Positions 2,118 to 48,790 of a stretch of 64,000 bases of DNA are shown here, in pieces; the stretch's first letter is position 1; every line of letters starts with the position of its first letter. Under the pieces are notes generated by a model. It ran no database searches, had not been told where the DNA came from, and worked only from the letters and a program-made list of their open reading frames with translations. The position numbers were made by a program, and so were the translations under genes. Origin of the DNA: Clostridium sp. 'deep sea' (GTDB lineage: Bacteria > Bacillota > UBA994 > PWPR01); the NCBI RefSeq assembly GCF_014931565.1, contig NZ_CP063353.1, positions 1,488,001-1,552,000 of the forward strand. Reading direction: 5' to 3'.

Positions 2118-2127
2118 TTTTTAGGTA

Positions 2128-2212
2128 TGGGCTTACGCTTTGCGTTACGCGGGATGGGTATTTCACTTTGTGAAATACGGGATGGGCAAGCCTTTGGCTT
2201 GCGGTTTTTTAG
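2128..2212 (+). repeat. Three tandem family II hairpins with shared flanks
   Basis: Three short inverted repeats follow one another, joined by GGGATGGG-type linkers. Stem one is ACGC/GCGT, stem two TATTTCAC/GTGAAATA, and stem three GCAAGCC/GGCTTGC. Each has a TTT loop, GGG before it and CGG after it. The last is followed by TTTTTT, so it may also end the M81 transcript. Confidence 0.7.
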
Positions 2213-2337: not shown

Positions 2338-2558
2338 CACCAAAGCAGGCATGGAAACCTGCCACTACAACTATTAAGACGAGTCTCATTTTAAGACCTA
2401 TAATGATAAATAAACCCGCGCCAGCCTAAACCGTAGCGAAGCTACCCACACCGAATGCCCAACAGGCATTCCCACTCCGCAATGCCAATACGTTTTATGG
2501 AATATAATGGATTAAAATCGTTACATTATAAAACCAACAAATATTAAAGGCGAGCCCT
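2338..2558. repeat. Composite hairpin module, copy 1 of a direct tandem repeat
   Basis: A 221-bp unit repeated at once by copy 2. It holds a hairpin GCAGG/CCTGC, then family II hairpins read on the minus strand: GTAGC/GCTAC with a GAA loop and GAATGCC/GGCATTC with a CAACA loop. A shared tail ends in AAAGGCGAGCCC. No open frame crosses it. Confidence 0.8.
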
Positions 2559-2783
2559 CACCAAAGCAGGCATGGAAACCTGCCACTACAACTATTAAGA
2601 CGAGTCTCATTTTAAGACCTATAATGATAAATAAACCCGCGCCAGCCCAAACCGTAACCCACAGGGTTACCCAAACCGAATGCCCAACAGGCATTCCCAC
2701 CCCGCGATGCCAATACGTTTTATGGAAACATAGTAGAATAAAATCGTTACATTATAAAACCAACAAATATTAAAGGCGAGCCC
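2559..2783. repeat. Composite hairpin module, copy 2
   Basis: Nearly identical to copy 1, except that the first inner hairpin is replaced by GTAACCC/GGGTTAC. The GAATGCC/GGCATTC hairpin and the tail are kept. A third, shortened copy lies at 24511-24603. Copy 2 runs straight into the terminator of the small membrane protein gene. Confidence 0.8.
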
Positions 2784-10590: not shown

Positions 10591-10606
10591 TATGGTAATT
10601 AGGTTA

Positions 10607-11110
10607 AAATATTAATTACACGTTTCCTAAATATCTACTACGGAATCACACAGAGGTGATTCCCTACAGTTGTTCAATTATAATATATTGGTAGTGAACG
10701 TGCCTCCGTGCCGTTCATAATCTTGTTTTATTAGCTATTTATCTTTATTTAAAATAATAATTACACGTTTCCTTGGTATCTTCTACGGAATCACACAGAG
10801 GTGATTCCCTACAGTTGTACAATTACAATATATTGGTAGTGAACGTGCCTCTGTGCCGTTCATAATCTTGTTTTTTTAGGTGTTTATCTTTATTTAAATA
10901 ATAATTACACGTTTCCTAAATATCTACAACGGAATCACACAGAGGTGATTCGCTACAGTTATACAATTACAATATATTGGTAGTGAACGTACCTCCGTGC
11001 CGTTGATATTCTTGTTTTATTAGCTATTTATCTTTATTTAAAATATTAACTATACGTTACCTCTGTATCTACTACGGAATCACACAGAGGTACTTCCCTA
11101 CACTGAGAAT
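10607..11110. repeat. Family I array: four units of about 145 bp
   Basis: The core GGAATCAC starts at 10642, 10787, 10931 and 11076, a period of 144-145 bases. Units 1-3 each hold hairpin A (GGAATCA, loop CACAGAGG, TGATTCC, then CTAC) and, about 50 bases on and inverted, hairpin B. Hairpin B, read on the minus strand, has arms related to TGAACG/CGTTCA around GGCACRGAGGCA, followed by CACTAC. Unit 4 has only a damaged hairpin A. AT-rich sequence separates the hairpins. A relative lies at 48285-48790. No open frame crosses the array. Confidence 0.9.
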
Positions 11111-11184: not shown

Positions 11185-11345
11185 AATTAGCGTGTTAATC
11201 ATCCTAATTGCACAGCAATTACCTAACCATAAGAGCTAAAGCTCGAACCCACCCCGATTATCCAAGGGATAATACCAAACCCTATGCTAAAAGCATAGCC
11301 AAATCAGGACCACCCCTAAGAGGGGTGGTTTGGACAAGCCCTATA
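11185..11345. repeat. String of family II hairpins beside the IS200 element
   Basis: At least six inverted repeats follow one another: AATTGC/GCAATT, GAGCT/AGCTC, ATTATCC/GGATAAT, CTATGCT/AGCATAG, ACCACCCCT/AGGGGTGGT and GCCC/GGGC. Loops are 3-4 bases and linkers are CC- or ACC-rich. All stems differ in sequence while spacing and flanks stay alike. Confidence 0.7.
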
Positions 11346-12005
11346 AGGGCCTACTACTTACCAGCGCCTAAATGACGCCCAGCTTGTACTTCGTTCAAGC
11401 CTAGTGGACTGATTACTTGCTACCCTTAAAAGGGTTTACGTACTCTTTGGTATATAATTTATCTTCTATTTGATCATGTTTATCTTGTTCTCTAATATAT
11501 TTCTGTACTGTTGCAGTTCTTATACCTACAGTACTTACATAGTATCCTGTTGCCCAAAAATTTCTCTTCCCAAACTTATACTTTAAATTTGCATGCCTCT
11601 CAAATATCATCATTGCACTTTTCCCTTTAAGATATCCCATTACTTGTGATACACTCAACTTTGGAGGTATTGATAGCAACAGATGTACATGATCTGCTTT
11701 CATATATCCCTCTATGATTTCGATACCTTTCCATTTACATAAATCTTTTATTATATTTTGTATATCTTTTCTTAACTTATAGTATATTATTTTCCTTCTA
11801 TACTTCGGGGTGAATACTATATGATATTTGCATACCCACTTTGTATGTGCTAAACTTTTTGCCATAAAAGCATCTCCTTATGTGTGTATAATCTAGGCTT
11901 GAACAACCATATTATACTTTAAGGTGATGCTTTTGCTTAAGCTTAAATCTCACCCGCGTAGCAGGTGGTTTTTGAAGGACTCTCCGAGTCCTTACACGTG
12001 CTAAA
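11346..12005 (-). mobile_element. IS200/IS605-type insertion sequence, ends approximate
   Basis: The element holds tnpA with non-coding flanks that contain small imperfect hairpins, such as GCTTG/CAAGC to the left and AAGGACTC/GAGTCCTT to the right, as expected for subterminal hairpins of single-strand transposons. The exact left and right ends cannot be set by eye because family II hairpins adjoin. No tnpB is present. Confidence 0.55.
11413..11865 (-). CDS. tnpA: IS200/IS605 family transposase TnpA (HUH, Y1)
   Basis: A 150-aa protein, full length for IS200-type TnpA, which cuts and joins single-stranded DNA as a dimer. The HUH motif is seen as DHVHLLLSI. The catalytic tyrosine is expected in VQKYIREQ, and the family signature GYYVSTVG precedes it. 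The start has GGAGATG upstream. No frameshift is seen, so it could be active. Its position between hairpin strings recalls REP-associated Y1 transposases, though its length and motifs are those of ordinary IS200. Confidence 0.93.
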   Translation of the reverse strand: MAKSLAHTKWVCKYHIVFTPKYRRKIIYYKLRKDIQNIIKDLCKWKGIEIIEGYMKADHVHLLLSIPPKLSVSQVMGYLKGKSAMMIFERHANLKYKFGKRNFWATGYYVSTVGIRTATVQKYIREQDKHDQIEDKLYTKEYVNPFKGSK

Positions 12006-24349: not shown

Positions 24350-24380
24350 TGGTTGGGGCTTACACTTTGTGTTTCGCGGG
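24350..24380 (+). repeat. Family II hairpin with ACAC/GTGT stem
   Basis: GGGG, then CTTACAC, TTT, GTGT, then CGGGG. The layout matches the hairpins at 2128-2212. Confidence 0.5.
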
Positions 24381-24397
24381 GTGGAGATTGCGTTGGG

Positions 24398-24456
24398 AAC
24401 GCTAGGGACGGGTGATTTTGTTCGGAAAACGAACAAAATCACCCGTCCCTAGCGTT
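24398..24456. repeat. Perfect 27-bp inverted repeat with a 5-base loop
   Basis: Arms 24398-24424 and 24430-24456 are exact reverse complements around GAAAA. The arm starts AACGCTAGGGACGGGTG. It is flanked by GGG on the left and CGG on the right, as are the short family II hairpins. There is no T-tract, so it is not a plain terminator. Confidence 0.95.
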
Positions 24457-24510
24457 CGGCAATTCTTACTTAAAGCTTCTCATTTTTAAACCAATAATTG
24501 TTTTTTAATC

Positions 24511-24603
24511 CGCGCCAGCCCAAACCGTGAACGAAGTGAACCTACCCCGAATACCCAACAGGTATTCCCAAACCGCGACGTTTCCCCAAACGAGCCCACC
24601 CCA
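24511..24603. repeat. Composite hairpin module, copy 3 (shortened)
   Basis: Shares CGCGCCAGCCCAAACCG, the CAACA-loop hairpin and the CGAGCCCACCCC tail with the modules at 2338-2783. Its hairpin stem is GAATACC/GGTATTC instead of GAATGCC/GGCATTC: both arms changed together. The first inner hairpin is replaced by an unpaired GTGAAC direct repeat. It ends in the same terminator as copy 2. Confidence 0.75.
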
Positions 24604-36931: not shown

Positions 36932-37230
36932 AAACTAAAAAACCTTCCGTTCCTTAAATAAAAGGGACGAAAGGTTATATTCCGCGGTACCACCCAAATT
37001 AGCATTGGCTCACTTAATCAGTACGGATATTATAATCGATACTGTCCATTCTGTAACGGTATGGTTCCGTCTAAGTCTACTACCTAAACTATCTGCAAAA
37101 ACAGATAGCGGGTTCGGTTAGAAACTCCGAGATGTTCTTCAAAGTAGCTCTCATATTGACCTTCCACCAACGTCAATTCGCTATAATTACCTGCTACTTT
37201 TACTCTTCTCATCATAGTTTTTAAAATTGT
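36932..37230 (-). promoter_or_regulatory. T-box riboswitch upstream of asnA
   Basis: Read on the minus strand, the leader has a stem I region with AGAAGAGTA, a long middle part, the T-box core GGGTGGTACCGCGG at about 36982-36995, and then the terminator. The T-box bulge pairs with the free 3' end of an uncharged tRNA and forms an antiterminator. The 3' side of the specifier loop contains GAACATC; AAC would be an Asn codon, which fits asnA, though I cannot fix the register by eye. Confidence 0.92.
36935..36978 (-). terminator. T-box terminator hairpin
   Basis: AACCTTTCGTCCC pairs with GGAACGGAAGGTT around an A/T-rich loop and is followed by TTTTTT on the minus strand. It competes with the antiterminator of the T-box. 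Confidence 0.85.
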
Positions 37231-48284: not shown

Positions 48285-48790
48285 CGACAATTTAAATATA
48301 GGCTTCCTTAACACCCACAACGGAATCACACTGAGGTGATTGCCTACCAATTCAGTTTTTTTATGTATTTACCTTAGTGAACAACCTCTGTGTTGTTCAA
48401 CTGTTTGTTATTACCTTATACTTTGATAATTAAATATAACATTACTTAATACCCACAATGGAATCACACTGAGGTGATTGCCTACCAGTTCAGTTTTTTT
48501 ATGTATTTACCGTAGTGAACTACCTCTGTGTTGTTCAACTGTTTGTTATTACCTTATACTTTGATAATTAAATATAACATTCCTTAATACCCACAATGGA
48601 ATCACACTGAGGTGATTGCCTACCAATTCAGTTTTTTTATGTATTTACCGTAGTGAACAACCTCTGTGTTGTTCAACTGTTTGTTATTACCTTATACTTA
48701 ATTGACAATTTAAATATAGTATTCCTTAATACCCACAATGGAATCACACTGAGGTGATTGCCTACCAGTTCAGTTTTTTTATGTATTCGC
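48285..48790. repeat. Family I array, second locus: four units of about 140 bp
   Basis: GGAATCAC cores start at 48322, 48460, 48598 and 48740. Each unit has hairpin A (GGAATCA, loop CACTGAGG, TGATTGC, CTAC). The first three also have an inverted hairpin B, read on the minus strand as TTGAACAA, loop CACAGAGG, TTGTTCA, CTA; the middle one has one mismatch. The stems differ from those at 10607-11110 while loop and CTA(C) flank are kept. No gene lies inside. Confidence 0.9.

Follow-up and report, generated by a model that had tools for sequence, protein, structure and literature searches.

The repeats most similar to the arrays that we describe are REP and REPIN sequences with their RAYT partners: these are short intergenic palindromes with a tag beside the stem, and they show compensatory changes in the stem, inverted doublets, and tandem clusters that include flanking DNA (PMC3116915, PMC3733652). 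The arrays are similar in all of these respects. In contrast to REP/REPIN sequences, the arrays are chains of two to five unlike hairpins, joined head-to-tail by GGNNTGG; they have no adjacent RAYT, and their stems differ between the modules of a single array. We looked for the GTAG (or CGTC) tetranucleotide at the end of the palindrome and found GTGG or TTGG as the foot instead. Because we found neither the GTAG tag nor adjacency to RAYT, we did not classify the arrays as REPs.

BOX elements of Streptococcus are arranged as boxA-boxB(n)-boxC and are thought to be parasitic; they are composites in which the end modules are distinct and the number of middle modules varies (PMC3049150), a plan that the arrays may share. 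However, copies of boxB share their sequence, while the middle modules of the arrays share the linker alone; the likeness is architectural only. The double-hairpin elements of Allomyces are organellar and have two hairpins only, unlike the arrays. As far as these mitochondrial elements are named in PMC7218506, they resemble the arrays in that adjacent hairpins are optional between relatives and are proposed to be mobile. Finally, clustered-hairpin intrinsic terminators have several hairpins soon after the stop codon (PMC8355165), as the arrays do. These terminators have no conserved linker, whereas the arrays lack a consistent T-tract and include antisense halves.

In the papers that we searched, we did not find a described family with a GGNNTGG linker. 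By analogy, the arrays would work like REP/REPIN and BOX repeats. On balance, we believe that they are a genus-restricted, non-autonomous, REP/BOX-like palindromic repeat whose linkers are recognized and whose stems are kept as structure.

Arrays in the window

The window is the entire stretch of DNA that we analyzed (64,000 nucleotides from Clostridium sp. 'deep sea'). An initial annotation had described three tandem hairpins with unlike stems at 2128-2212, and we found these at 2131-2150, 2158-2178, and 2186-2202. It had also reported the same plan farther along, which proved to be real at 2.45-2.7 kb (minus strand), 11.2 kb (minus strand), and 24.4-24.6 kb (both strands). We distinguish two types of module: P modules are perfect hairpins whose stems have 6-9 bp and whose loops have a length of 3-5, and K modules follow the scheme RC-TY-[hairpin]-NTC-GY, in which a 2x3 internal loop is conserved. 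The features are:

2124..2130, plus strand: linker GGTATGG, the outer end of the array, starting 7 nt past the stop codon of the M81-peptidase gene (624-2117)
2131..2150, plus strand: K-like module GC-TT-ACGC-TTT-GCGT-TAC-GC (closing pairs, 2x3 internal loop, and inner stem, from folding)
2151..2157, plus strand: linker GGGATGG
2158..2178, plus strand: P module, a 9-bp perfect hairpin, GTATTTCAC-TTT-GTGAAATAC
2179..2185, plus strand: linker GGGATGG
2186..2210, plus strand: P module GCAAGCC-TTT-GGCTTGC (2186-2202), then GGTTTTTT; terminator-like
2415..2557, minus strand: array with inner end GGCTGGCGCGGG, hairpins GTAGC..GCTAC and GAATGCC..GGCATTC, and an outer K module
2636..2783, minus strand: second copy of the minus-strand array, within a tandem duplication with a period of 221-226
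11249..11316, minus strand: degenerate array, 96 nt past the stop codon of an IS200-type transposase gene
24350..24470, plus strand: left half of a composite element, with a K module and then the P hairpin AGATTGC..GCAATTCT
24520..24602, minus strand: right half of the composite element of 24.4-24.6 kb

The first hairpin (2131-2150) is imperfect (GCTTACGC-TTT-GCGTTACGC), and with TAC as its 3' loop it was left unclassed when modules were typed as P or K. The stem of the second recurs in the genome with other loops. The third is followed by T6 and scores as terminator-like; when we checked for a GC-rich hairpin with an immediate T-tract, as in intrinsic terminators, this last window hairpin was the only one that had both.

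The loops of the hairpins host other palindromes. The loop of the outer K module of the 2415..2557 array holds a palindromic insert, ACGTTTTATGGA...TAAAATCGTTAC, which is found inside module loops at several loci, including both minus-strand copies in the window. Similarly, the P-hairpin loop of the 24350..24470 half holds a REP palindrome of a resident RAYT family (24397-24457). The 2636..2783 copy has GTAACCC..GGGTTAC in place of the first hairpin.

The window contains other repeats as well. A perfect 13-bp palindrome (TAAAAATTATTGT-AA-ACAATAATTTTTA, 2096-2123) covers the M81 stop codon, and the array starts directly after its last base. At 10604-11102, a 145-bp unit is repeated 3.4 times in tandem; each unit contains two palindromes (GGAATCAC-ACAGAG-GTGATTCC next to CTAC, and GTAGTGAACG.../CGTTCA), and this tandem array resembles a REP family with a GTAG tag. 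A related tandem array at 48292-48787 repeats a 138-bp unit 3.6 times and contains the palindromes GGAATCACACTGAGGTGATT and GTAGTGAACAACC. At Rfam's gathering score, no array in the window had a match, and the only hit was a T-box at 36960-37224.

Linkers and modules

The initial annotation had the hairpins sharing GGG before the stem, a TTT loop, and CGG after it. GGG and CGG are real, but TTT is just one of many loops. Also, these flanks are not constant as such: the last G of GGG and the C of CGG form a base pair. Each of these hairpins therefore has GG, a closing G-C pair, and GG, and in other modules the closing pair beside the linker is A-T. What is invariant is the 7-base linker GG-NN-TGG, where NN is mostly GG, TT, AG, or TG. 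GGGGTGG is the usual form, GGTTTGG, GGAGTGG, and GGTGTGG are also found, and a GTAGTG variant occurs but is rare. The exact linker GGGATGGG is rare as well (4 CGGGATGGG in the whole genome). Searching the window for the pattern as proposed, GGG-S-N3..5-S'-CGG with S perfect and no shorter than 5, gave 6 matches, versus a mean of 0.03 across 60 dinucleotide shuffles.

To avoid selecting on pairing, we searched for linkers without any criterion for the stem. The genome is 3.83 Mb (33% GC), and about 27% of it was read as stretches (1.03 Mb), which were partly chosen around matches. In this 1.03 Mb, we found 157 pairs of linkers that were 10-40 bases apart, versus 2 in shuffled sequence. Among the 157 enclosed stretches, 67 have at least 6 contiguous outer pairs (0.13 were expected if the stretch was shuffled), and another 52 have exactly two outer pairs, most of which are K modules.

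As a control, we examined 83 unrelated hits to a three-linker string in viral contigs. There the enclosed stem never exceeded 3 bp, whereas in this genome it is nearly always a P or a K module. A loose-pattern scan of genome contigs was too unspecific to use as a search for the family, so we kept it as another control: just 1 of its 117 hits had a 6-bp stem, and none had a longer one.

The order of the modules is K-P-K-P, and neighboring modules are K-P or P-K in 38 cases, P-P in 14, and K-K in 1; K modules are found inside arrays and not just at the ends. The closing pairs of K modules covary (GC/GC, AC/GT, GT/AC, AT/AT). There is also a recurrent inner end, TGGGCTNGCGCGG, with 15 exact matches in the genome (27 if one mismatch is allowed) and 0 for the reversed control. 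Across 120 relatives, a 13-position exact tail pattern gave scattered single matches with no array context. The linker-only counts, the linkers of the sister species (see below), the controls, and the P and K modules strongly support the modular structure that was originally suggested.

Stem sequences and folding

The roughly 150 modules are nearly all different (there are 15 identical pairs), yet they are complementary: the sequences of the stems are nearly free, and complementarity is kept. In an alignment of 39 P modules, all seven pairs have changed on both sides, in 87 cells versus 19.5 in shuffles, and double changes dominate. Because these 39 rows were preselected for pairing, the linker-only count is the proper test of complementarity.

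Mismatches are rare, and they are of one kind. On the G-rich strand we found 7 A.C mismatches (these are G.T or G.U on the C-rich strand) and 0 G.T, from about 5 independent events. In 490 stem pairs, there is no G.U on the sense strand.

We also predicted the folding of 40 arrays. The mean probability of the drawn pairs is 0.91 for G-rich single-stranded DNA, 0.94 for C-rich single-stranded DNA, and 0.94 for C-rich RNA, but only 0.69 for G-rich RNA, which is the sense of the upstream gene (paired p=3e-8). The folding and the mismatch bias make the sense mRNA less likely as the main substrate and favor single-stranded DNA or a C-rich transcript; these predictions are suggestive, not decisive.

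For some composites, pairing of the two halves via their linkers into a single trunk is predicted. We rejected this as a requirement, as many single halves exist. Also, the linkers in the left half of the composite at 3688 kb seem to be GTAGTG-like, which counts against a required trunk.

Distribution across the genome and its relatives

Genome-wide counts are from a covariance model of the P module, with at most 150 candidates scored per genome, which makes them lower bounds. Clostridium sp. 'deep sea' (G000) has at least 99 matches, at a minimum of about 47 loci. The one other species of the genus in the comparison (G001, a 160-contig draft) has at least 42. With this model we found 0 matches in a genome from the same family and one chance-level match among 14 others, and across 398 genomes of the phylum, only G000 and G001 score. 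The exact K-module pattern, searched in the 398 genomes, is found 9 times in G000, with one stray match elsewhere. As judged by these searches, the family appears to be restricted to the genus.

The second species has the same linkers but other stems (GTTTAC, AATTGC, GCTTGCC), in a rather fixed order and in different places. A syntenic gap contains an array in G001 (L359), while in G000 (L299) it is 133 bp without an array. The array at 2124 of the window follows the M81 gene, whereas the M81 gene in G001 is not followed by an array. The sister species is too distant (AddA is 50% identical) for the G000-G001 comparison to demonstrate a target-site duplication or a clean empty site. Within G000 there are local tandem amplifications at 2338-2783 of the window, 643.7-644.5 kb, and 1568.4-1569.2 kb, sometimes with a REP-like palindrome.

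Most of the model-detected loci (38/47) lie between 0.33 and 1.7 Mb, or about 36% of the chromosome. GC skew places the origin at about 2.45 Mb and the terminus at about 0.54 Mb, so that the loci are concentrated regionally rather than simply by distance to the origin. They are asymmetric about the terminus. By eye, single arrays did not favor either the leading or the lagging strand.

G001 also contains a repeat with steps of 12-13 bases (TTGAACGATTGCTGGAACAATTGC, GGCAATAGTTTGGCAGTTG), at L365:13585-14740 and at other loci. It has alternating short palindromes and is often found beside arrays.

Gene context

The arrays lie between genes, usually 0-100 nt past a stop codon. Using simple (crude) ORF calls, we placed 59 arrays outside ORFs. 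Of these, 42 come after a gene that has the same sense as their G-rich strand, mostly within 100 nt of its stop codon, and just 5 are in divergent contexts. At 23 of the 47 model-detected loci there are two facing arrays, always plus and then minus; many single arrays are found as well.

This orientation towards the upstream gene could instead indicate a role in transcripts. The arrays might be RNA elements of the 3' UTR, that is, clusters of hairpins past stop codons that terminate transcription or protect the 3' ends of mRNAs, with facing halves serving one convergent gene each. Clusters of hairpins can act as intrinsic terminators if they lie within 80 nt of a stop codon (PMC8355165), and the third hairpin in the window with its T6 would fit. 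However, a run of at least 5 T within 45 nt follows just 10 of 82 arrays (and precedes 26 of 82), the sense (G-rich) RNA folds the hairpins worst and has no G.U in 490 stem pairs, and termination requires neither a conserved linker nor the K loop. Also, in composites between co-oriented genes, the second half is antisense and near the start of the next gene. We consider this explanation possible but not probable. The initial annotation had argued that ordinary terminators do not explain the structure. We agree: they leave unexplained the linkers, the internal loop of K modules, the halves that face each other in pairs, and the restriction to one genus. The terminator and 3'-UTR readings explain less than a REP/BOX-like repeat does.

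Candidate mobilizing genes

G000 has eight RAYT-like Y1 transposase genes, at 0.86, 1.41, 2.02, 2.62, 3.41, 3.56, 3.67, and 3.81 Mb (L055-L062), and one IS200-type gene, which is the only complete one (11413-11865 of the window, minus strand). G001 has 4 Y1 genes. None of the eight RAYT-like genes has a pair of linkers within 1.5 kb, and the array by the IS200-type gene is positioned as it would be after an ordinary gene. Among the Y1 genes, which were the genes compared, there was no transposon with terminal inverted repeats that match the arrays. The lack of a mobilizing gene that is linked to the arrays weakens our preferred explanation.

Several of the RAYT genes are bracketed by inverted palindromes of their own (for example, GGGGTCAGGC...GCCTGACCCC; CGAACGTTGGGGACGGGTG...), which implies several REP families in one Firmicutes-like genome, although PMC3733652 did not report GTAG/CGTC repeats from Firmicutes. 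Directly downstream of one RAYT gene (L062:1860-2920), there are about ten tandem units of GGCAGACACAAGGCCTGCCACTAC / GTAGTGGAGGGCTTTATGTCCTCC.

Could the arrays be REPs in the strict sense, mobilized in trans by one of the resident RAYTs, with GTGG as a variant of the GTAG tag? Their 6-9 bp palindromes do have very short loops and GTGG or TTGG as the foot, the GTAGTG variant of the linker exists, Y1 genes are present in both species, and in some REP families the tag is degenerate or GTGG (PMC3733652). On the other hand, no RAYT gene is flanked by arrays even though several are flanked by other palindromes, a head-to-tail arrangement is rare in REPs (PMC3733652), and arrays are absent from two relatives of the same class, G003 and G005, which do have Y1 genes. 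We think that this explanation is unlikely.

A proposed mechanism

A host-selected structural or DNA-binding element, such as a nucleoid- or protein-binding array whose linkers might form two-layer G-quadruplexes with the hairpins as loops, seems very improbable: GG tracts do flank every hairpin on both sides, and the loci are regionally concentrated, but the NN of the linker varies (GG, TT, AG, TG) and arrays are present or absent between two species of one genus.

If the arrays are instead REP/BOX-like repeats, then the unit would be a string of head-to-tail hairpins joined by GGNNTGG, and some factor would recognize the linker and, in K modules, the internal loop. The stems would serve only as secondary structure, so they could drift by paired changes or be re-made complementary by template switching. 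Rather than in the 3' UTR of the mRNA upstream, this structure would probably be kept as single-stranded DNA or as a C-rich transcript. Arrays would spread by copying and would be tolerated mainly where they land shortly after a stop codon; local tandem amplification would follow.

More tentatively, we suggest that the arrays may represent a class of element whose identity resides only in the 7-base linker and the small internal loop. The hairpins would then be sequence-free tokens, which can be exchanged, diverge, and host insertions of palindromes, and a putative dedicated enzyme would copy the element on folded single strands.

The arrays resemble the repetitive palindromes of other bacteria and look like a new relative of them that is probably mobile. 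With them, the REP/BOX-like repeats would gain a form with several hairpins joined head-to-tail, in the phylum to which this host belongs. If the linkers are recognized and the stems are free, then the arrays are a natural and internally replicated experiment on what palindromic repeats need to persist, with more than 150 linker-bounded modules and two species with different sets of stems.
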